Notes under the pieces: model-generated | The model's database searches: none | Told to the model about the DNA's origin: nothing | What the model saw: the letters and a program-made list of their open reading frames with translations, nothing else | Part shown: positions 5,441-50,545 of the stretch, in pieces | Numbering within the stretch: position 1 is the stretch's first letter | Layout of the letters: every line of letters starts with the position of its first letter | Assembly: GCA_013153495.1 (NCBI GenBank) | Contig: JAADEH010000012.1 | Span: forward strand, 496,001 to 560,000 | Origin: Aquificota bacterium | GTDB taxonomy: Bacteria > Aquificota > Aquificia > Aquificales > Aquificaceae | Length of the DNA stretch: 64,000 bases | Reading direction: 5' to 3' | Position numbers and translations under genes: made by a program

Positions 5441-7669
5441 ATGGAAAAAGTCTGGGAAGCTCACGGACTGACGGAAGAGGAATACAGAAGGATTGTCTCC
5501 TATCTCAAGAGGGAACCCAACAATGTGGAACTCGGCATCTTGGGCGCTCTCTGGTCCGAACACTGTTCCTACAAATCCTCGAGAAAGGTGCTCAAGAAGT
5601 TTCCGACGCAGGCGGAGTGGGTCGTTCAGGGACCGGGAGAGAATGCGGGCGTTGTGGAGATAGATGACAAGGTGTGGGTAGCCTTCAAGGTGGAGAGCCA
5701 CAATCACCCCTCCTTTATAGAACCCTTCAACGGTGCGGCAACGGGTGTGGGAGGGATAATAAGGGATGTCCTCTCTATGGGAGCAAGACCTATCGCACTT
5801 GCGGACTCTCTACGGTTCGGTGAGTTTACGGACCACAGGACGAAGTTCCTCGTAAAGGGTGTGGTGAAGGGAATAAGCTCCTACGGAAACTCCATAGGTG
5901 TTCCGACCGTAGCAGGTGAGACCTTCTTTGAAAGCTCCTACAAAACAAACCCTCTTGTAAATGCCTTCTGTTTGGGCATAATACCCGCAGGCAAACTGTT
6001 CAGGGCAAGGGCAACGAGGGTGGGACAGCTTCTCTTTTTGATAGGTTCCTCCACGGGGAGAGACGGAATTCACGGAGCTGTGATGGCATCGGGTGAGTTC
6101 GGAGAGGACACGGAGGCAAAGAGACCCAACGTTCAGGTGGGAGACCCCTACTTCGGAAAAAAACTTATAGAGGCTGTTCTGGAAGCGGTTGAAAAGGAGC
6201 TTGTTGTAGGTATGCAGGACCTCGGGGCTGCCGGGCTTGCAGGTTCCGCTTCGGAACTTGCGAACAAGTCCGGTATGGGAGTCGAACTCCACCTCGAAGA
6301 GGTCCCTCTCAGAGAAGAAGGTATGACCCCCTACGAAATACTCCTGTCCGAAAGCCAAGAAAGGATGCTCTTGGTGGCAGAGGAGGAAAACGTAGGAAAG
6401 CTCATAGATATAGCGCAAAAATACCACCTCAGCTACGGCATAGTGGGAAGAACCACCGACGACCGCATCTTCAGAGCCTTTTACAAAGGAGAGCCGGTGG
6501 CAGAACTTCCCGTTTCCCTCATAGTTGATGAAGCTCCCCTATACGATAGACCCACAAAGGAACCCGACTACTTAAAGGAACTGAGAAGTTTTCAGCAGGA
6601 CCTCCTACCGGAGGTGGATATAAAGGAAGCTCTAAGAACACTCCTTGCCTCACCAAACATATGCTCGAAGGAGTGGGTGTTCTCCCAATACGACTATCAA
6701 GTGGGAACTAATACCGTTGTAAAACCCGGTGGGGATGCTGCGGTTCTAAGGCTCAAGTGGTCCCTCAGACCCCAGATAAAAACCGACAGGGGGATAGCCA
6801 TATCCTCCGAGGGGAACGGCAGGTTCGTGTTCCTGGACCCATACGAGGGAGGGAAGCTCGTAGTTGCGGAAGCCTGCAGGAACGTTGCCTGCGTAGGAGC
6901 AAAACCCCTTGCCATAACCGACTGTCTCAACTTCGGAAATCCCGAAAGACCAGAAATAATGTGGCAGTTCGTAAAGGCTGTGGAAGGCATGTCCGAAGCC
7001 TGCAAAGCTCTCAACGTTCCCGTCGTAAGCGGGAATGTGTCCCTGTATAACGAAACGGTGGAGAAGGGAGAGGTCAGAAACATATTCCCCACACCCATAG
7101 TAGTGTGCGTAGGTGTTCTCGAGAATGTGGAAAGGTTCGTAGAACACAAATATGTGGAGCCTTCAGAACTTCTCCTCGTCGGAAACCTCTCAACACCTTC
7201 GAGAATAGACGGAAGCGAATACCTGAAGGTGGTTCACCTGCTCATAAAAGGAAAGGTTCCCCCCATAGACCTCCAGAAAGAGAAACTGCTCATAGATACC
7301 CTCGTAGAGCTTATATCGAAGGACATGGTTCTGTCCGCTCACGACGTATCCTCCGGGGGAATTCTGATAAACGTTCTGGAAAGTCTGTTTCCCACGGAAT
7401 TCGGAGCGGAGCTTGAGATTTACTCCGACGAAAGGGCTGACTTCTTCCTCTTTTCGGAAAACCCCACGAGGGTCGTTCTGAGCGTTGACCCCAGCAAGTC
7501 CGGAGAAGTCAGGGACTTCATAGAGGAAAAGGGTCTCGACTGGATGTATATAGGTAGAGTAGTAGAAAACAGAACCCTTCGGGTTTTTTACAACGAAGAT
7601 AAAATACTTGAAGAAGACGTGGAAGAACTTAAAAAAATTTGGCAAAACTCCTTAGAGGGGGCACTTTGA
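5441..7669 (+). CDS. purL: phosphoribosylformylglycinamidine synthase subunit PurL
   Basis: ATP-dependent amidation of FGAR to FGAM, the fourth step of purine synthesis. At 742 residues this is the small form, which works with separate PurS and PurQ (not in this window). ATG 5441 gives MEKVWEAHGLTEEEYRR, matching the family start; the frame is open further upstream but runs antisense through rplU. Landmarks: GALWSEHCSYKSSR near the N-terminus with the catalytic His, SHNHPSFIEPFNGAATGVGG, and the second half beginning around GTNTVVKPGGDAAVLR, with TDCLNFGNPE. The two halves are the duplicated AIRS-like ATP-binding domains. The stop overlaps the lspA start. Confidence 0.95.
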   Translation: MEKVWEAHGLTEEEYRRIVSYLKREPNNVELGILGALWSEHCSYKSSRKVLKKFPTQAEWVVQGPGENAGVVEIDDKVWVAFKVESHNHPSFIEPFNGAATGVGGIIRDVLSMGARPIALADSLRFGEFTDHRTKFLVKGVVKGISSYGNSIGVPTVAGETFFESSYKTNPLVNAFCLGIIPAGKLFRARATRVGQLLFLIGSSTGRDGIHGAVMASGEFGEDTEAKRPNVQVGDPYFGKKLIEAVLEAVEKELVVGMQDLGAAGLAGSASELANKSGMGVELHLEEVPLREEGMTPYEILLSESQERMLLVAEEENVGKLIDIAQKYHLSYGIVGRTTDDRIFRAFYKGEPVAELPVSLIVDEAPLYDRPTKEPDYLKELRSFQQDLLPEVDIKEALRTLLASPNICSKEWVFSQYDYQVGTNTVVKPGGDAAVLRLKWSLRPQIKTDRGIAISSEGNGRFVFLDPYEGGKLVVAEACRNVACVGAKPLAITDCLNFGNPERPEIMWQFVKAVEGMSEACKALNVPVVSGNVSLYNETVEKGEVRNIFPTPIVVCVGVLENVERFVEHKYVEPSELLLVGNLSTPSRIDGSEYLKVVHLLIKGKVPPIDLQKEKLLIDTLVELISKDMVLSAHDVSSGGILINVLESLFPTEFGAELEIYSDERADFFLFSENPTRVVLSVDPSKSGEVRDFIEEKGLDWMYIGRVVENRTLRVFYNEDKILEEDVEELKKIWQNSLEGAL

Positions 7670-8109
7670 CATACCTATACACCCTTCTGACGGTTCTTAT
7701 ACTCGACCTGCTTACGAAGGAAGTTGCAGAAAGTTTCCTCTCCGAACGGGCTGTTGACCTTCTACCTTTCCTTAAGCTCTTTCTGATACACAACAGGGGA
7801 GCCGCTTTCGGAATGTTTGCGGAAGCTCCCGACTGGATAAGACTTCCCCTGCTCCTGATTACCCCCATTCTCGCTCTGATAATAACCTTCCTGTATGCAA
7901 ACCGTTCGAAGGACACAAAAACACAAATTCTCATGGGAATGATAGCGGGGGGAGCGCTCGGCAATCTTCATGACAGGCTTTTTCTGGGAGAGGTCAGGGA
8001 CTTTATACACCTTCACGTGGGGAACTTCTACTGGCCCGCCTTCAACCTTGCGGACGCAAGCATAACCACCGCCATAGCGGTCCTTCTTATAAGAACTATA
8101 AAAAAGTAA
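7666..8109 (+). CDS. lspA: lipoprotein signal peptidase (signal peptidase II)
   Basis: Inner-membrane aspartyl protease that removes signal peptides from lipidated prolipoproteins. I choose TTG 7666 (MTYLYTLLTVLILDLLTKE), with AGAGGGGG just upstream and a TTGA overlap with the purL stop; a TTG at 7639 would add nine residues. Length is 147 residues with four hydrophobic spans. The two catalytic aspartates are Asp103 (GALGNLHDR) and Asp130 (FNLADASI), and the conserved NRGAAFG is at residues 43-49. The usual GNxIDR is GNLHDR here. Confidence 0.93.
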   Translation: MTYLYTLLTVLILDLLTKEVAESFLSERAVDLLPFLKLFLIHNRGAAFGMFAEAPDWIRLPLLLITPILALIITFLYANRSKDTKTQILMGMIAGGALGNLHDRLFLGEVRDFIHLHVGNFYWPAFNLADASITTAIAVLLIRTIKK

Positions 8110-9811: not shown

Positions 9812-10360
9812 TTAAGAACTCTCTAAGCTGTATCTTATAATCTCCAACAGAGTTAGTAAGGTCTTCTTAACCTCATCCTTATTCTTGGCAGACAACGCTA
9901 TAACAGGTATTCCTTCGTCCTCGGAAATGTCGAGAGCAGCTTTTACATCTTCGGCAGACCAGGCGTTGGGCATGTCCTGTTTATTAGCTCCTACGACAAT
10001 CGGAACAGGAAACCTTGACTGGAAAAAGTTGATTATCCTCCTCGCCTCGTGGAATGTTTTCGGGTCTGTGCTATCAACAAGAACGATTATGCCCAAGGCT
10101 CCCTCTCCGAGAATTTCCCACATAAAGTCAAAACGGGATTGCCCGGGTGTTCCGAACAGATAAAGCTCGTGCTCATCGTCTATACGTATTTTGCCGAAAT
10201 CCATAGCAACCGTGGTGTAATCCTTTACGTTCTTTTCAGAACCGGAGGTTTTTCTTTCAGTCTGAACAGTTTTTATTTCGCTGACGGTATTTATAAACTG
10301 CGTTTTACCTGCCGCGAATGGACCTGCAATGACTATCTTTATCTTCTTCAGCTCCTTCAT
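9812..10360 (-). CDS. MglA-like small Ras-family GTPase (module A)
   Basis: Prokaryotic Ras-like GTPase, 182 residues, cytoplasmic. P-loop GPFAAGKT at 13-20, switch-II TPGQ at 71-74 (the TPGQ form is typical of MglA-type and conservon GTPases, where classical Ras has DxxG), and NKQD at 126-129 for guanine specificity. Expected to cycle between GTP and GDP with a Roadblock protein as regulator; one is encoded two genes upstream. Neighbours in transcription order: membrane coiled-coil protein, Roadblock protein, DUF4388 protein, this GTPase. The output is unknown: MglA sets polarity in Myxococcus, but that cannot be transferred on sequence alone. Confidence 0.9.
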   Translation of the reverse strand: MKELKKIKIVIAGPFAAGKTQFINTVSEIKTVQTERKTSGSEKNVKDYTTVAMDFGKIRIDDEHELYLFGTPGQSRFDFMWEILGEGALGIIVLVDSTDPKTFHEARRIINFFQSRFPVPIVVGANKQDMPNAWSAEDVKAALDISEDEGIPVIALSAKNKDEVKKTLLTLLEIIRYSLESS

Positions 10361-10370
10361 ATCACACCCA

Positions 10371-11063
10371 CTACAACTGTTTAATTTTCTCTATTATCTT
10401 GGCAAGAAGGTCAAGAGTAATAGATGGTTTTTGAATCCTTTCCTTTCTCTTTCTCCTTATTATCCCCGTTGCGAGGAAGCCGTATAAAGCTCTGTCAACC
10501 GTGAGACTATCTAACCCACTCTCCTTACGTATATCCGCAACAGTTTTGCTACCGTCCACCAGAGATAGAACCTTTTTTTCCTCTTCGGTTAGTTTTACCC
10601 TACCTACTTTTTCGTCCGCATCGTGGGTTTTTTCAAAAATAAGCATCTCGTCGGATATTTTCCTCTCCACCTCCTCCTCAGTAAGGTAGCGTGAAGAACG
10701 CATAATAAGCTCTTCCACAGGATAGTAAACGGGAACATCACTATCATACTTTATAAATCCCGGCGTAAAGGAGAATATTCCTTCCTTTTGGTTCAATCTC
10801 GAAAGGAAAAATCTCTCAATCGTTTTGTATATGTCCTCTTTCTTTATACGAAGTCTCGTAATGAGTTGGTCAAAGTTCCTATCTGTATATACTCTAAAAA
10901 CCTTGTCAACCGGTCTGGCAAATACAAGCTCCCCGTCCTTAACGTAGTAGGCAACTATCATATCGTTCCATTCCACGAGGAGGACGCCACTTTTCTTATC
11001 TCTTGCAAGCACCTGAAGAATATCTGCAAAGCTGAAAGTGTTTAGGTCCCCCGTGAGAGCCAT
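10371..11063 (-). CDS. DUF4388-domain protein (module A)
   Basis: Protein of 230 residues. The N-terminus (ALTGDLNTFSFADILQVLARDKKSGVLLVEW) is the DUF4388 (PATAN-like) signature, a beta-rich domain found in bacterial signalling proteins. The C-terminal part (about residues 155-215) contains EKKVLSLVDGSKTVADIRKESGLD followed by VDRALYGFLATGIIRRK, which reads as a winged-helix-like segment. No membrane span. It sits between the Roadblock gene (3 bases away) and the GTPase gene (10 bases away), so all are surely cotranscribed. DUF4388 proteins often neighbour MglA-type GTPases; the likely job is an adaptor or effector of the GTPase, which is inference. Confidence 0.8.
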   Translation of the reverse strand: MALTGDLNTFSFADILQVLARDKKSGVLLVEWNDMIVAYYVKDGELVFARPVDKVFRVYTDRNFDQLITRLRIKKEDIYKTIERFFLSRLNQKEGIFSFTPGFIKYDSDVPVYYPVEELIMRSSRYLTEEEVERKISDEMLIFEKTHDADEKVGRVKLTEEEKKVLSLVDGSKTVADIRKESGLDSLTVDRALYGFLATGIIRRKRKERIQKPSITLDLLAKIIEKIKQL

Positions 11064-11066
11064 TTA

Positions 11067-11423
11067 TTAACCTATCGCCTCCTTAAGTTGGTCTTGAGCT
11101 TTTCTTATTTCCATAAGAAGCAGTCCTAACTTTGCGGTATTGCTTGCGAGCACCGTCAAGACCGCATCCTGTCCTATACCTGTAAGTATCACGTATCCAT
11201 CGTGCCCCTTTATGGTTATCTGTTCAAGATTACCCTTCTGAAGTTCCTCCGCAACCTTCTCTCCCAAGGAGAGGATAGCAGCACTCATGGCTGCGACTCT
11301 GTCTTCCTCTATGCCGGGCTTTAGAACAGAAGAAATAGGAAGCCCGTCCGCACTAACGAGAACCGCTCCTTCTAACCCCGAATTTTTGATAAGCTCCTGG
11401 AGAATGCTCTCATACTTGTCCAT
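11067..11423 (-). CDS. Roadblock/LC7-domain protein (MglB-like, module A)
   Basis: Single Roadblock/LC7 domain of 118 residues: an N-terminal helix, then GAVLVSADGLPISS, the helix AAMSAAILSLGEKVAEEL, and the strands ITIKGHDGYVILTGIGQDAVLTVLAS. This is the family of MglB, the GTPase-activating partner of MglA, and of dynein light chains. It is immediately upstream of the DUF4388 and GTPase genes. Function as the GTPase regulator of module A is inferred from family and position. Confidence 0.87.
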   Translation of the reverse strand: MDKYESILQELIKNSGLEGAVLVSADGLPISSVLKPGIEEDRVAAMSAAILSLGEKVAEELQKGNLEQITIKGHDGYVILTGIGQDAVLTVLASNTAKLGLLLMEIRKAQDQLKEAIG

Positions 11424-11440
11424 TTCTTTTCAACCTCCAC

Positions 11441-12151
11441 TTAGTATTCCTTTATAAACTCGAGAGCCTTTTCTATCTGCTCCTCAGCCATCTTTATCCT
11501 CTCTATCCCCTCCTTTACCTCTTGGAAATCTATTTTATCCTCTTTCTTATCAATTAGGGAGAGGATTCTATGCAGTTCCCTATCGCAAACAGCAAGGTTC
11601 TTTTTTATTTCCAGAAACCTGCTTTGGTATTCTTCAAGAGTATGTTGGACAGCCTGACCAATCGCCCCCACAGGGTCAAGTCCCGATGGAAACTCAACAT
11701 TGATGTAACCCTCCTGAGCTTTCTCAAGGGCGGTCAATACTCTCGCAGCGTTTTCAGATATATTCTCTATTTGCTCCTCCAGGCTCTTAATCTCTCTCTC
11801 ATACCTATCCTCGAAGCTCTTTACTAACTCCTTTATACTTCTAATGATGTCCAGAACTTCTTCGTGCAAAGGTATGGGGACTACCATTCTCTCTTTATGC
11901 CTTTCTTCCAGTATTTCTATAACATACAAAAGTCGTCCAAATAACTCCTCTAATTTGTTTTTAGTCCATATTATATTGAAAATTACCCAGCCAAAAGCCA
12001 CCGCAAACCCTATTCCAACAGAATAGTAAGGGTTAAGTTTGCCTATAAAAAAGAGTATTAGTGCAATAGTTGCTCCAAGCAATAGAGAGGAAAAAATAAA
12101 AAACTTCAGAAGCTCTCCAGCCAAAGATGATAATTTGGGAGTTTCTACCAT
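11441..12151 (-). CDS. membrane protein with long cytoplasmic coiled coil (module A)
   Basis: First gene of module A, 236 residues. Two hydrophobic segments (about residues 14-36 and 41-62) form a hairpin with a very short periplasmic loop, so there is no obvious ligand-binding domain. The remaining 170 residues are charged and helical, with coiled-coil heptads such as EREIKSLEEQIENISENAARVLTALEKAQ. It resembles the cytoplasmic part of a chemoreceptor in shape, but I see no methyl-accepting hairpin motif or HAMP domain. By position it is the membrane partner or input of the downstream Roadblock/GTPase pair. No specific family recognised. Confidence 0.7.
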   Translation of the reverse strand: MVETPKLSSLAGELLKFFIFSSLLLGATIALILFFIGKLNPYYSVGIGFAVAFGWVIFNIIWTKNKLEELFGRLLYVIEILEERHKERMVVPIPLHEEVLDIIRSIKELVKSFEDRYEREIKSLEEQIENISENAARVLTALEKAQEGYINVEFPSGLDPVGAIGQAVQHTLEEYQSRFLEIKKNLAVCDRELHRILSLIDKKEDKIDFQEVKEGIERIKMAEEQIEKALEFIKEY

Positions 12152-45120: not shown

Positions 45121-46014
45121 TCAACTCATCATATCCATAAGCTTCTTCATACTTACCCTGAGCCTCTCTATAGCTCTTGCCAACATACCTATTTCGTTTT
45201 CGGACTGATAGGGAACTTTGTCTTCAAGTTCACCTTTGCTAATTTTTTCAACCTTTTCCTTCAACGTATCCACAGGTTTAAAGACTCTAATGTTAAGTAT
45301 AGCAAGCAGTAATGCAGACAACAGAATAAACACTCCCCCTGTAATGCCCCCATTCACCAAACCGTCCATACGTGCCCTGGCAAGAACTTCATCAAAGGGT
45401 ATGTATATAACTATCGCTCCGTTGACCTTTCCCACGGGCCAGTTTGGGTCACTTTTGGGTTTATACCTTTCCTTCACAGCTCTTGGCATAGCCTCCAATG
45501 TTCCATGACAGCGTAAACAGCTCTGTTTAGGTATAACCGCAAAGGCTTTAACGTAGTAATCTCTTCCTTTATGAAGCGTTATACCTTCATATTCCTTCAG
45601 GTTCTTCGATTGCAAATATGCTATTATCCACATTTCCGTGTCGTTTGGCTTGTTTCTCGGGTTGAGGGGTTTTATCGCTACTTGTCTAAGTTCCATATCC
45701 GGTATGTCTCTGTTGACCATCTTAAATATGGAAGCTGTAAAGAAGGAAGAGGATTGAGCTTCTAATATAAAATCCTCGTTAGTGCATCCTGCTGCAAGGA
45801 GTTCGTAAACCTTTGGTCTGAGGGTTTTTCTAACATACTCCCTCGACGCTTTCACAAAAGCCATGGTTGTCTCTATTCTGCTTTTTGTAGCTTCTATAGC
45901 TTGTTCTACTGTATGCCTGTATATCAGATAACCCACAACCGCACCAACTACGATACCTGCAACAATTATGAGCACAGTTAATTCCGTTCTTATGCTTTTG
46001 AAAGGCGACTTCAC
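45121..46014 (-). CDS. heme-c-containing HAMP sensor without output domain (module B)
   Basis: Membrane sensor of 297 residues: span at about 13-35, periplasmic DUF3365 (Tll0287-like) domain with a c-type heme site SCLRCHGTLEAMP, a second span at about 225-245, then a HAMP domain (ILNIRVFKPVDTLKEKVEKISKGELEDKVP) and a short coil ending MKKLMDMMS. There is no histidine kinase, cyclase or methyl-accepting domain. Its last 25 residues resemble those of the Cache-HAMP protein at 48.2 kb. The next gene upstream encodes a DUF4388-like repeat protein. By context the signal goes to the GTPase of module B (inference). Confidence 0.82.
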   Translation of the reverse strand: MKSPFKSIRTELTVLIIVAGIVVGAVVGYLIYRHTVEQAIEATKSRIETTMAFVKASREYVRKTLRPKVYELLAAGCTNEDFILEAQSSSFFTASIFKMVNRDIPDMELRQVAIKPLNPRNKPNDTEMWIIAYLQSKNLKEYEGITLHKGRDYYVKAFAVIPKQSCLRCHGTLEAMPRAVKERYKPKSDPNWPVGKVNGAIVIYIPFDEVLARARMDGLVNGGITGGVFILLSALLLAILNIRVFKPVDTLKEKVEKISKGELEDKVPYQSENEIGMLARAIERLRVSMKKLMDMMS

Positions 46015-47144
46015 TTAACCAACCTCCTAACTTTACTTATAAATCCTGTCCTGTGTTCCTCAAAGGGTATTTCTTTTGCAAGGGTATTTATTAAATCTTT
46101 AAGTCTGTTCGCAGGTATAGAATGGTCTTTCCAACCAAATTCCTTTAGTATTTTGCTCCACAAAACTTTGCCGACGGGTCCTATTTCATCTATGAAAGCC
46201 TCTTTTATCGCGGATACCTTGTCCTCCGATACTTTCTCAGTTATGTCTTCATGTGTGTCTATATCCAACTTTATGCTTTTAGGCTCCTCCTCCACGTAAA
46301 GAGGATATAAGTAAAACTTACCCGAAAAGTTTATTCTTCCCTCCGCAATTTCCCTAAGTTCCAAAAGACTTTCCCTGATTGTAGTTACATGGTTTCCTTT
46401 CAGGAAGAAGCTGTAATATCTGTTGTCCCTCCCGCCATCAAGATAGAGTAGTGCTGTCATCTTCCTTTCTTTTATATCGTCTGAAAGGGCTAAGAGTTCA
46501 GGTTGTCCTTCAATTACTCCTTCCCTCATAGATTTAAGCCCTCCCATAGATGATAAGAGCTTAGCAAAGTCGTGTTTGAGAGTAAACAGACTTACCATGC
46601 TTCTTTCATAATTGTTGTTTATATATTTGAGAGCATCTTCTCCTTTAAGACCCTGAGAAAACACCCCGATAGGGGTTCCTTTATAGAAGATTATTATTCC
46701 AAATACATCTTTGTGTGTGTGGAACATTGCGTATCCACTGTGAAGCCCTCTCTCAAATCTATCTATAAGCCTATCTGTGTTAAAAGTATTTGCAGGCAAA
46801 CAGGTTTCAAGTTCATACCCATAACCTGCAAGACATAAAGCACAGTCCCTTTCGGGATTAAAGCTTCCTTTTAACGCATTAAGAATATTAAATAGGTCTG
46901 TTTCAATTATTTGGGCTGTTCCCGTCCTGGGCAAAGTGTATCCGCTTGGATGTGCCTCTTCAAATCCGTTTTCAGATGAGATAAACACCCTTTCAGGCTT
47001 CCCTTTATAAAAAGCTATGTATTCATTAACTTTCCATATACTTACCTTGATAAATCCAGTAAACTCTTCCTTCTTTAGCTCTTCAAATACTACATCTAAG
47101 TCTGCATACTCAAGATTTATAGTATCCCTTATTTCTTGGCGCAT
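46011..47144 (-). CDS. DUF4388-like repeat protein, paralogue of the 49.4-kb gene (module B)
   Basis: Soluble protein of 377 residues. Three similar beta segments recur: TGFIKVSIWKVNEYIAFYKGKPERVF, GYAMFHTHKDVFGIIIFYKGTPIGVF and ALLYLDGGRDNRYYSFFLKG, each the strand pattern of a DUF4388/PATAN-like unit. The C-terminus IDEIGPVGKVLWSKILKEFGW is shared with the 394-residue paralogue at 49.4-50.5 kb. Its start overlaps the GTPase stop by 16 bases, and its stop overlaps the heme sensor start. Likely an adaptor between GTPase and sensor; no catalytic motif seen. Confidence 0.72.
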   Translation of the reverse strand: MRQEIRDTINLEYADLDVVFEELKKEEFTGFIKVSIWKVNEYIAFYKGKPERVFISSENGFEEAHPSGYTLPRTGTAQIIETDLFNILNALKGSFNPERDCALCLAGYGYELETCLPANTFNTDRLIDRFERGLHSGYAMFHTHKDVFGIIIFYKGTPIGVFSQGLKGEDALKYINNNYERSMVSLFTLKHDFAKLLSSMGGLKSMREGVIEGQPELLALSDDIKERKMTALLYLDGGRDNRYYSFFLKGNHVTTIRESLLELREIAEGRINFSGKFYLYPLYVEEEPKSIKLDIDTHEDITEKVSEDKVSAIKEAFIDEIGPVGKVLWSKILKEFGWKDHSIPANRLKDLINTLAKEIPFEEHRTGFISKVRRLVK

Positions 47145-47692
47145 GCCTTTTCTATGAGTATCTTTTTAACTATAGCTTGGAAGGTTTCAAGAACCCCCTT
47201 CCCCTGAGTGGCTATGGCTTCTACGTGTTCCGTCCCCCAAGGGTTACATACCGGCTCCAGCTCGTCAATGGGCAAGGCATCGGGCAAGTCCCTTTTGTTG
47301 TATTGGACTACCACCGGTAAGGAATAGAGGTCAAATCCTTGCTCTTTCAGCACCGCTGCGGTTTCCCTAAGCACGAGAAAGTTTATATTTTCCCTTTCTT
47401 TGGAACTATCAACCACAAAGACGAGACCATCTACACCCTTCATTATGACCTTTCTGAGAGGATGAAGTCTGAATTGACCCGGTGTAGTGAGGACTTTTAT
47501 GTCTATCTTTTGTCCGTCAATGTTCAGGGAGCTTAAAAACATTTCTACGAACAAAGTCCTGTTTTCATCCGTTTCCATGGATATGTAATCGCCTTTAGTT
47601 ACTCCCTTTTCCCTGAGTTTATCGTATAGGACCTTTACATTGGTGCTTTTTCCTGCCAAAGATGCTCCGAAATATACAACCTTGAGTTTCAT
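47129..47692 (-). CDS. MglA-like small Ras-family GTPase (module B)
   Basis: Ras-like GTPase, 187 residues. P-loop GASLAGKS at 9-16, TPGQ at 70-73, NKRD at 132-135. It is closer in layout to Myxococcus MglA than the module-A protein is (METDENRTLFVEMF between switch regions). The start overlaps the Roadblock gene stop (ATGA), so the two are translationally coupled, as expected for an MglA/MglB pair. Confidence 0.92.
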   Translation of the reverse strand: MKLKVVYFGASLAGKSTNVKVLYDKLREKGVTKGDYISMETDENRTLFVEMFLSSLNIDGQKIDIKVLTTPGQFRLHPLRKVIMKGVDGLVFVVDSSKERENINFLVLRETAAVLKEQGFDLYSLPVVVQYNKRDLPDALPIDELEPVCNPWGTEHVEAIATQGKGVLETFQAIVKKILIEKACAKK

Positions 47693-48180
47693 GATGCCCC
47701 CAGTATTTTGTTGAGTTTATCCTCAATAGCCTCGGGAGAAAGTCTCAGCAGTTTCGAAGGCTTTGGCTTCACAGAGCTGAATATTCTGTTTAGTTCTTCT
47801 GTAAGTTCTTTTAGGAAGAGTCTTACAGTTCCGAGAGCAACACTCTTTGGACATAGGACGCCTACAAGAAATCTATCACCCACAGCTTTTACGACAACAT
47901 TTTGCTTTTTACTCTCATACTGTATCGCATCGAGTAAATCTTCCTGAGACACCATCTTTGCCATTTCGAAAGCTGCACCAAATATACCGCTTATAATGCT
48001 TGCAAGGAATTCTGCTTGTGTTTCATCAAGATTTTTACCATAGAAGGAGATTATTCTCCCCGCATCGTCTGAGAGGATAACGAGGTCCGCATCGGTTTTG
48101 GTTATAAAGTTCTTAAGAGTATTTATTAGTTGTCTCTCTACCTCCTCGTCTATTTCATACTGGACCACGTCAAGCTCCAT
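47689..48180 (-). CDS. Roadblock/LC7-like protein (module B)
   Basis: Protein of 163 residues from ATG 48180 (MELDVVQYEIDEEVERQL), which has GGAGGAGATT upstream; a longer frame adds ten residues without a ribosome-binding site. The Roadblock fold is read from DADLVILSDDAGRIISFYG, the helix LASIISGIFGAAFEMAKM and the strands NVVVKAVGDRFLVGVLCP. An extra C-terminal tail of about 45 residues (SSVKPKPSKLLRLSPEAIEDKLNKILG) is longer than in MglB. Partner and probable GTPase-activating protein for the adjacent GTPase. Confidence 0.82.
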   Translation of the reverse strand: MELDVVQYEIDEEVERQLINTLKNFITKTDADLVILSDDAGRIISFYGKNLDETQAEFLASIISGIFGAAFEMAKMVSQEDLLDAIQYESKKQNVVVKAVGDRFLVGVLCPKSVALGTVRLFLKELTEELNRIFSSVKPKPSKLLRLSPEAIEDKLNKILGAS

Positions 48181-48228
48181 AATCTCCTCCTCGATTAAAT
48201 GATATTTCAAATTTCATATCTATCAACC

Positions 48229-49344
48229 TCACTTAAGAAGGTCCATAACCTTCTTTATACTTATACGCATTCTCTCAAAAGCCTCGGCTAACTTTCCTAT
48301 CTCGTCTTTAGACTGTATGGGTATCTTCTGGTCAACGTCTCCCATACTTATCCTTTCTGTGTGCTCTATTAATGTGTTTATAGGCTCTTCAACGTAGCGC
48401 TTGAAAATCATATAGCTTATGAAGAAGCTGAATATTATTCCCAAGAACACAAACATAAGTATGTATATACCAAGCTGTTTGTAGGAGTCTATCACATGGG
48501 TTAGGTCGTATCCCAAGACTAAAAGTCCTATGTTTTTCTTAGAAAAGTCTCTAAGAGGTTTAGCGACAACAGCGTAATTCTCAACCATAATAACCTTTCC
48601 CGGATGTTCTACAGCTCTTAAAAGAAGTTGGCGTAACACAGGATTCGTTTCGTAATATAAAGCATACTGACCTACTTTTTGAGCTTTTGAAACCCATTCT
48701 GAATGTGATGCAGCTCTTCTATTTATTAGGACTATGGTATCTATACTTTTAAGTTCCTTGAGTTTGTCAAGTATTGGGTCAAAAGGAACTATAAGCTCTA
48801 CAGCTCCCAAGTATGTGTCTCCATCCATAACCGGAACAGCTCCGGTAACTATTGTTCTTCTCAAACCCACTTCTATACCCTTCTGGGGCGCTCTTCTCTG
48901 AGCAACGGTGACTATAACCTTTCTGAATTTAGAAACGTCTATTCCGTATCTTTCAGGGTTCCATGTCCTGAAAAAGGAAACCGCAATAGGCGTAAGGAAA
49001 TGCAGTCTTATGTCATACACACCCGTTAGGTTTTCAAGCTCGGCTCTGATTCTGACATATTTTTTAAGAAGCTGTCTATCTCTGTTTCTAAAAGCATTCT
49101 TTACATCAGGGTCAAGACTCACAAGGTATGCCACTGCAAGACCGTGCCTTTCTTCACTTGCCACTCTTTCCAAAAAGAGCTTGTATCCACTCTCAAGAAT
49201 TTCTTCAGCTTGCTTTTTTAACTGCTGTTGTATCAAGTAGTAACTTATAGCACTTACTGATACTATCAGAAGCACCAGAACCGCAATGTTTGGAACAACA
49301 AATTTTTCTATCAATGATGCGTTTCTGAAATATCTACCTAACAT
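48229..49344 (-). CDS. Cache-HAMP sensor without output domain (module B)
   Basis: Membrane receptor of 371 residues: span at 16-38, a large periplasmic region (40-290) of Cache type with EERHGLAVAYLVSLDPDVKNAFRNRD and GDTYLGAVELIVPF, second span at about 292-315, then HAMP (MIFKRYVEEPINTLIEHTERISMGDVDQKIPI) and a short coil ending MRISIKKVMDLLK. As in the heme sensor of this locus, nothing follows HAMP: it is the input half of a chemoreceptor. A typical Cache ligand is a small organic or inorganic anion, but I cannot name it. Confidence 0.82.
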   Translation of the reverse strand: MLGRYFRNASLIEKFVVPNIAVLVLLIVSVSAISYYLIQQQLKKQAEEILESGYKLFLERVASEERHGLAVAYLVSLDPDVKNAFRNRDRQLLKKYVRIRAELENLTGVYDIRLHFLTPIAVSFFRTWNPERYGIDVSKFRKVIVTVAQRRAPQKGIEVGLRRTIVTGAVPVMDGDTYLGAVELIVPFDPILDKLKELKSIDTIVLINRRAASHSEWVSKAQKVGQYALYYETNPVLRQLLLRAVEHPGKVIMVENYAVVAKPLRDFSKKNIGLLVLGYDLTHVIDSYKQLGIYILMFVFLGIIFSFFISYMIFKRYVEEPINTLIEHTERISMGDVDQKIPIQSKDEIGKLAEAFERMRISIKKVMDLLK

Positions 49345-49360
49345 CTATTTACCCCCTTAA

Positions 49361-50545
49361 TTAAATTATATCGGGTAATATGTCTTCGATTTTTCTCATA
49401 AATTCCTTACTCATATCCTCCTCGGGAAATTCCTTACGGAGTCTTTCTACGACAATCTTTAGCTGATTTAAGTTCATCGAGCTTTCTTTAAACCCATATT
49501 CTTCTAAGGTTTTCTCCCATATAAGCTTTCCGATAGGTCCTATGTCCCTGATGAATTCAGACTTTACAGCTGTAACTTTTTCCAGAGGGACTTCGGGAGA
49601 AGTATCTACGACTTCCTCGCTCGTTACTTCTATTACCACGTCTATGGTATTCGGCTTTTCTATAAGGGAAACTTCGTATAATTTGATAGTTCTGTCGGGT
49701 AGGTTTTCCACTTTTACAGATAGTCGTTCCTTGTCTTCTCCTTGTAAGAATACTCCCTTGTCCTTAACAAGGCTTTCTATAAGCTGTCCTCTGAAAAATA
49801 GGTCGTATCTTGATATACCTTCACTCTCTATAACTACAATTGCACTTCTTCTACCTTTGGATATGTATTCCCTTGCTTCCGAGTAGTTCTTTATCTGTAA
49901 GTCGAGTTCGATTATATTGTCGTCGTGCATTGAATACATAAAGCTAAGAAGCTCTGGTTCAAGAGCATACATAGACATAAAGCTTTTTGCCGGAATGAGA
50001 TGTGCGTTTATGTAGCTTATTGCGGGTTGTCCGTAGGAGCCATCTCCGGCGAATACAGCTACAGGGAGTCCACCCTGGAACACCACCAGCCCAAAGATTT
50101 CCTCTTCAGAATATAAAGCCATGTAGCCATCTAAGTGACTCCTTTGAGCGAGCAAAAACTCTCTGTTAACGTCAAGAAAACTCACAGATATAGGCTCCTG
50201 AATAGGAGTCCCGTGAGGAAAAAAGATTATGGAACCGTCCATTTTTGGATTATGCCTGTATTCAGCTATTGCAACTAAATCGTCCACAGTCGTTTCTGCA
50301 AGGGACGCTGTGCCATCCTCATCACCGAGTTTAAAGGTATCTGGTTCAGCACTTTGTCTGGTTCCATCTGTATTAAAGATGACAACTTTGTATGGTTCTC
50401 CTTCCCTTATTAGTAGGTATTCGTCCCTGGTCCAATAAACTACACGCAGGAAACCTGTGAGATTTTTCCTCCTTATTTCATCGATAACCTTGCTAAAGCT
50501 CATAACCTTGGTATCAAGGTCCTTAAAAAGATATCTCTTAAGCAT
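49361..50545 (-). CDS. DUF4388-like repeat protein, first gene of module B
   Basis: Protein of 394 residues, paralogue of the 377-residue protein at 46.0 kb. Repeat units: LTGFLRVVYWTRDEYLLIREGEPYKVV, GYMALYSEEEIFGLVVFQGGLPVAVF and SAIVVIESEGISRYDLFFRG. The C-terminal SEFIRDIGPIGKLIWEKTLEEYGF corresponds to DEIGPVGKVLWSKILKEFGW in the paralogue. The two paralogues flank the Cache sensor, Roadblock and GTPase genes, and each precedes one HAMP sensor gene, so each may serve its own sensor. Confidence 0.72.
   Translation of the reverse strand: MLKRYLFKDLDTKVMSFSKVIDEIRRKNLTGFLRVVYWTRDEYLLIREGEPYKVVIFNTDGTRQSAEPDTFKLGDEDGTASLAETTVDDLVAIAEYRHNPKMDGSIIFFPHGTPIQEPISVSFLDVNREFLLAQRSHLDGYMALYSEEEIFGLVVFQGGLPVAVFAGDGSYGQPAISYINAHLIPAKSFMSMYALEPELLSFMYSMHDDNIIELDLQIKNYSEAREYISKGRRSAIVVIESEGISRYDLFFRGQLIESLVKDKGVFLQGEDKERLSVKVENLPDRTIKLYEVSLIEKPNTIDVVIEVTSEEVVDTSPEVPLEKVTAVKSEFIRDIGPIGKLIWEKTLEEYGFKESSMNLNQLKIVVERLRKEFPEEDMSKEFMRKIEDILPDII

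Follow-up and report, generated by a model that had tools for sequence, protein, structure and literature searches.

HAMP-Ended Receptors Encoded with a Shared C-Terminal Domain and an MglA-Type Small GTPase in Aquificaceae and Other Lineages

The stretch of DNA analysed here (the window; 64,000 nucleotides, positions 496,001-560,000 of contig JAADEH010000012.1, assembly GCA_013153495.1, from an Aquificota bacterium of the Aquificaceae) carries on its minus strand, at 45121-50545, a six-gene operon, F, E, D, C, B and A, that encodes two membrane receptors ending directly after a HAMP domain, a Roadblock protein, an MglA-type small GTPase and two repeat proteins sharing a C-terminal domain (CTD). 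The analysis points to a widespread, apparently undescribed route from a cell-surface sensor to a small GTPase. The explanation that we regard as probable is a receptor-coupled small-GTPase system, in which dimers of the HAMP-ended receptors would dock the CTD and the part fused to this domain would pass the signal to MglB/MglA.

The Receptors and Their Conserved Tail

All six open reading frames were found where the preliminary description had placed them and are tightly packed, as it had claimed, two junctions having gaps of 16 and 48 bp and the other three overlaps of 4, 16 and 4 bp. Receptor E (48229..49344, minus strand as all genes of the operon, 371 residues) is composed of a dCache_3 sensor (3e-25) and a HAMP domain, and receptor A (45121..46014, 297 residues) of a Tll0287-like haem sensor (3e-29) and a HAMP domain, the CxxCH motif for haem c binding in the latter (CLRCH, 45505..45519) being invariant in 12 relatives (C166, C169 and H170). 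The domain search found nothing further in either protein, and only 7 residues follow HAMP, in line with the earlier statement that both receptors stop just after it. Neither a methyl-accepting chemotaxis protein (MCP) signalling domain nor, behind HAMP, a histidine-kinase ATPase part such as that of CvnA was detected in A or E, just a short tail.

The sensors of E and A are unrelated and their ends are alike, a similarity that had been pointed out before and that apparently exists because both are forms of one canonical tail, RMR[IV]SIKKVMDLLK. This tail is kept by E (RMRISIKKVMDLLK, 48232..48273) and, in genomes lacking E, by A, as seen at the loci where A is the sole receptor (L022, L024, L026, L029, L082-L086 and L091). 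The tail of A has drifted in the window (RLRVSMKKLMDMMS, 45124..45165) and at L012, both with E present, as well as at L010, where the presence of E is not judgeable because the contig begins inside D. In an alignment of 15 receptors, invariant residues occupy 9 of the 20 terminal positions, compared to 9 of the 313 positions ahead of HAMP. In the structural model of E, the last HAMP helix runs on to residue 370 (helix 348-370), so that conservation and model together suggest a helical continuation of HAMP AS2, the sensor part of the same model being poor (predicted local distance difference test, pLDDT, 67).

A HAMP search of seven genomes gave 40 matches, and the 30 proteins with available sequence split into two classes, with 7-14 residues after HAMP (10 proteins) or at least 215 (20 proteins); two more HAMP-ended proteins known from L102 and L110 bring the set of these genomes to 12. 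The tail signature [RA][MLA][RH]xS[ILMV][KRQT], defined post hoc and therefore descriptive only, is present in 17/22 HAMP-ended proteins and in 0/20 other HAMP proteins. The HAMP-ended set also includes short transmembrane-HAMP proteins of 125-145 residues with almost no sensor domain, which would fit the idea that these proteins, rather than being inputs, serve as anchors or targets in the membrane and place the GTPase system at, for instance, the pole, given that MglA systems act through localisation (PMC11580455). However, varied periplasmic sensors (dCache_3, haem Tll0287) are present in the window and at most other loci, and the tail is conserved while the sensors vary, making an anchoring role quite unlikely.

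The Repeat Proteins and the C-Terminal Domain

The proteins F (49361..50545, 394 residues) and B (46011..47144, 377 residues), the putative partners of E and A, respectively, are homologous by alignment and share a CTD of about 75 residues with an IGP[IV]G motif, which had been overlooked. It was delimited by alignments in F (49364..49594) and by sequence comparison in B (46014..46238), and no Pfam or NCBIfam model covers it. The model of F shows three beta-alpha-beta-beta-beta units (pLDDT 89), a low-confidence linker at residues 308-315 and then a four-helix CTD; a fold search of this model against the PDB returned only meaningless sliding-clamp matches (TM-score about 0.1).

The label "DUF4388-like" (DUF4388/PATAN) given to F and B can be kept in a weaker sense. 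No Pfam family exceeds its cut-off in either protein, and PF14332 (DUF4388) matches weakly in 3/18 of their relatives, with F and B themselves below the gathering score; the label is thus based on these matches, on internal repeats, of which the first matches the second at p 8e-7, and on the modelled fold. CTD proteins at the same place elsewhere do exceed the PF14332 cut-off, with 54 bits at L145 and 51 bits at L102. A profile comparison of F/B with the DUF4388 protein encoded elsewhere in the window gave an unconvincing likeness, and the N-terminal part of other CTD proteins resembles MglB at p 0.002, a mere hint of a Roadblock nature.

The GTPase and the Roadblock Protein

The GTPase C (47129..47692, 187 residues) is Ras-like, its best PDB match being MglA of Myxococcus xanthus (1.8e-38), and its catalytic residues are intact, comprising an invariant P-loop, R45-T46, TTPGQ and NKRD. 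The P-loop G[AS]SLAGKS and NKRD are found in 11/11 GTPase sequences, in agreement with the GxxxxGK[ST] and G4 [NT]KxD patterns, and the invariant R45-T46 places an intrinsic arginine beside the G2 threonine, aligned with DRTLF of M. xanthus MglA, as is characteristic of Group 1. Regarding the G3 motif, which according to Wuichet and Sogaard-Andersen is TVPGQ in Group 1 and GTPGQ in Groups 2-5, TVPGQ was not found in the GTPase sequences compared; the intermediate TTPGQ occurs in 11/11, and C is therefore called Group-1-like only. The NxFD of the Group 2 GTPase was likewise not found in these sequences, which have NKRD instead.

The Roadblock identity of D (47689..48180, 163 residues) is supported by Robl_LC7 (34 bits, cut-off 23) and by a PDB match to MglB (1.4e-10), while its start, formerly set at 48210, is most likely 48180, where GGAGGAG lies upstream and orthologues begin as well. 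D does not reach the NCBIfam MglB equivalog (31 bits against 200), which may be a narrow clade model, as its name ends in 'Thm'. A D-type gene adjoins mglA at most loci of the family.

Conservation and Co-Inheritance in the Family

The family survey covered 23 named loci of Aquificaceae/Aquificales and the presence or absence of each part over 64 genomes. Three layouts were observed among the loci, F-E-D-C-B-A, F-E-D-C and D-C-B-A, each receptor thus being accompanied by an F/B-type gene of its own, and the two behaving as a cassette joined to MglB-MglA; at L011, B is present without A, and in the complete genome G057 the receptor is encoded away from the MglA-F/B pair. In the 64 genomes, F/B and MglA are both present in 35, F/B only in 1, MglA only in 1 and neither in 27, and the corresponding numbers for receptor and MglA are 33, 1 (receptor only), 3 (MglA only) and 27. 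All three parts are absent from 26/64 genomes, and the discordant cases are fragmented metagenome-assembled genomes (MAGs); Fisher p-values for the co-occurrence range from 1e-13 to 1e-15, ignoring relatedness. The system also varies within four genera, with both states held by g2, g6 and g8 and one genome without it in g3, so the operon is not one inherited block. MglB-MglA, F/B and the receptor have been gained and lost together in this family.

In the window, bcp, nth and leuA flank the operon on the same strand with short gaps, and chance co-location in a gene-dense one-strand stretch might be invoked. However, the core (MglB-MglA-F/B-haem receptor in other genera) stays together while the flanking genes change between genera and phyla, and owing to this cross-phylum recurrence chance linkage was rejected as hardly credible.

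The preliminary description had named a complete chemotaxis (Che) system as the finding that would speak for another partner, and the genome of the window does carry MCPs, CheA and CheW, as would suit receptors whose partner in trans is a chemotaxis array or a histidine kinase, with the GTPase genes as bystanders. However, no MCP-domain match was found in nine operon-bearing genomes (G001, G004, G007, G024, G027, G028, G043, G049 and G057), and two others (G026 and G052) have sub-threshold matches only, so the Che system is not the general partner and the Che array was rejected as such. Besides, the receptors are gained and lost together with MglA, and the conserved core of the family loci contains no kinase gene. 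Signalling through Che or a kinase in trans is, consequently, very improbable, and bacteria such as G001 and G028, having this system and no MCP domain, would possess a sensory route other than chemotaxis.

The C-Terminal Domain as Neighbour of HAMP-Ended Receptors

In the seven genomes searched, 11/12 HAMP-ended proteins adjoin a CTD gene. The genome of the window has a further HAMP-ended pair followed by a 231-residue CTD protein (contig C9, L041). The sister family f2 has an operon with a HAMP-ended transmembrane protein, a CTD protein, Roadblock, DUF4388 and a GTPase of a second type (L093-L099, L101 and L112), and in the class-level relatives f5 a haem-type HAMP-ended receptor adjoins a DUF4388-CTD protein (L102, L104 and L107), two other f5 loci (L103 and L106) having a CTD gene without a HAMP-ended neighbour.

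Searches with the CTD alone, which involve no selection for HAMP or GTPase, recovered nine genomes outside Aquificota among 391 relatives. A HAMP-ended receptor is encoded within a few genes of the CTD at 7/10 loci outside the phylum, and at four of these the same run continues with MglB and MglA, genes for a response regulator and for PATAN- or Roadblock-like proteins coming before it. In the G208 phylum, exactly one CTD is present in 40/40 genomes, and the order CTD, HAMP-ended receptor, MglB was read at 30/30 loci, followed by the first part of MglA wherever the sequence fetched extends far enough; these receptors end 2-8 residues past the HAMP match. In the phylum of G187, 7/9 genomes have a CTD, with a receptor within reach at 5/7 loci. 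In the G262 phylum, the CTD forms the end of Ser/Thr kinases, beside which a HAMP-ended receptor is encoded at 7/11 loci.

As seen by this gene-neighbourhood analysis, HAMP-ended receptors are linked to GTPase genes in the family, in the sister family, in four or more genomes from outside Aquificota and in the phylum of G208. The opposite outcome, receptors of this kind in other genomes without such a link, had been named in the preliminary description as refuting. The GTPase link proposed for Aquificales is therefore upheld, and its restriction to that lineage is not, as the system occurs in several phyla.

Proposed Mechanism and Its Weighing

The genomic linkage behind the membrane-to-small-GTPase pathway proposed earlier has strong support, and we infer signalling in the direction from receptor to GTPase. 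HAMP domains function as dimeric relays of four helices, and MglB is the GTPase-activating protein (GAP) of MglA. In the proposed mechanism, a ligand at the dCache domain of E, or redox state or a ligand at the haem c of A, would be sensed in the periplasm, altering the packing of the HAMP four-helix bundle in the receptor dimer. The receptor itself lacks an output domain; its HAMP helix would extend into the short conserved amphipathic tail, and the tail or the bundle would dock the CTD of the cognate repeat protein, E with F and A with B. The F/B repeats, PATAN-like and held at the membrane, may then bias the MglB/MglA cycle as a platform, an exchange factor or a GAP-modulating factor, so that sensing would set the level or place of MglA-GTP. 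The target of MglA-GTP could, in turn, be a machine of the cell envelope, the most plausible candidates being a type IV pilus or type II secretion ATPase, or else the cell pole, by analogy with Myxococcus.

The best available hint of such an output is found in G028, where the gene of a GspE-type ATPase begins 4 bp behind a receptor gene and precedes gspL-, gspM- and gspK-like genes (L084 1754-4067, L184), a neighbourhood that is not to be leaned on.

Several points weigh against the receptor-coupled GTPase system. A pilus or secretion ATPase as output is suggested by no more than one operon and a loose neighbourhood, and gene order suits input and output equally. The HAMP-ended protein at L183 has no CTD neighbour, the CTD at L143, L144 and L149 has no HAMP-ended receptor, and the CTD-receptor pairs of f5 (L102, L104 and L107) have no adjacent GTPase. 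In addition, two genomes share a one-base disruption of the MglA frame, located in both at the same codon, about K116-E117 (L091, 3497-4065, and L031, 2468-3021). The former locus belongs to the complete chromosome G001 and the latter to a MAG, and sequencing error, decay or frameshifting are all possible causes.

The pairs without a GTPase, or with Ser/Thr kinases, indicate that the CTD, not the GTPase, is the constant partner of the receptors. They also bear on the alternative in which the linkage is real and the tail contacts MglB or MglA directly, with F/B and their CTD as a scaffold or an effector downstream of the GTPase: such a contact would leave these pairs unaccounted for, although it would agree with MglB adjoining the receptor at the loci of the G208 and G187 phyla, and with PATAN proteins being known neighbours of MglA that act on the pilus ATPase PilB1 in cyanobacteria (PMC4316618, PMC7690835). 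Direct contact is thus considered unlikely. Returning to docking through the CTD, we are slightly inclined to a more general split-receptor architecture, where HAMP-ended sensors would dock, through their helical tail, any CTD-bearing protein, the output being PATAN/Roadblock to MglB/MglA or a Ser/Thr kinase according to lineage. If true, this would be a transmembrane signalling route beside kinases, MCPs and cyclases.

Comparison with Known Systems

The nearest known kind is represented by the conservons/AGPS (CvnA-D, Group 2 MglA), which couple a kinase-type receptor to a GTPase and likewise have a HAMP membrane sensor, a Roadblock protein, a third protein and a Ras-like GTPase in one operon (PMC13343842, PMC4316618). 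There, a GAP and a guanine nucleotide exchange factor are proposed to relay the action of the HAMP-containing sensor to the GTPase (PMC13343842), and the Roadblock protein is a GAP in the Mfp system (PMC13343842, PMC4316618). However, CvnA is histidine-kinase-like, with DHp/ATPase parts and an LPxR end, whereas the receptors described here stop at HAMP; the third protein here is PATAN-like with a CTD, and the GTPase resembles Group 1.

The MglA/MglB system of M. xanthus, with Frz, RomR/RomX and SgmX, has a homologous GTPase and Roadblock protein, and its MglA-GTP recruits the pilus extension ATPase PilB through SgmX (PMC11580455). Its input differs, coming from the chemosensory Frz system, which includes a kinase and response regulators, and a HAMP-ended receptor is not described for it in the literature examined. 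PATAN/DUF4388 genes near MglA or MglB have been noted for Groups 1 and 5 (PMC4316618), and PilB1 of Synechocystis is a target of PATAN regulators (PMC7690835); HAMP-ended receptors and the CTD are not part of those descriptions. The HAMP prototype is Af1503 (PMC3585426).

This receptor of Archaeoglobus reportedly has no domain after HAMP, ending there as E and A do. In the open-licence PMC papers searched, no description of HAMP-ended receptors with MglA/MglB or with the CTD was found. Receptor-to-GTPase operons and PATAN-MglA neighbourhoods are, then, known already, and the HAMP-ended receptors with the CTD are apparently new. They offer a possible answer to two questions, what output-less HAMP receptors signal to and by which route external signals reach MglA switches in bacteria that lack a Frz-like input, and they single out one candidate interface, the HAMP tail with the CTD, an uncatalogued domain family, recurring over several phyla.

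Other Small-GTPase Modules and Neighbouring Genes

A second module related to the six-gene operon, also overlooked before, lies in the window at 9812..12151 on the minus strand and encodes a GTPase with GTPGQ (9812-10360), a DUF4388 protein (10371-11063), a Roadblock protein (11067-11423) and a coiled-coil protein with two transmembrane segments (11441-12151). In the sister family, GTPase, DUF4388 and Roadblock genes of this type follow the gene pair of HAMP-ended receptor and CTD. The genome of the window has a third small GTPase with its own Roadblock (contig C2, L040 9357-10307), one gene away from an ATPase of GspE/PilB type judging from its sequence (6645-8054). A fourth, MglA-like, with TIPGQ and the G2 arginine (contig C1:413000-422000, L111 4191-6197), adjoins a 474-residue protein weakly similar to the F/B repeats, and its homologues are widespread in the family.

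In two genomes of the window's genus, a HAMP-ended pair with a CTD gene and the gene of a GspE-type ATPase are convergent and overlap by 4 bp (L109 2735-5572 and L110 2205-5054). In genus g6, mglB is divergent from flhA- and flhF-like genes (L081 1412-3967 and L086 5833-8409). At L018, from 9068 on, the leuA side is replaced by a cluster that, judged by eye, looks like CRISPR-Cas type III (Cmr-like).

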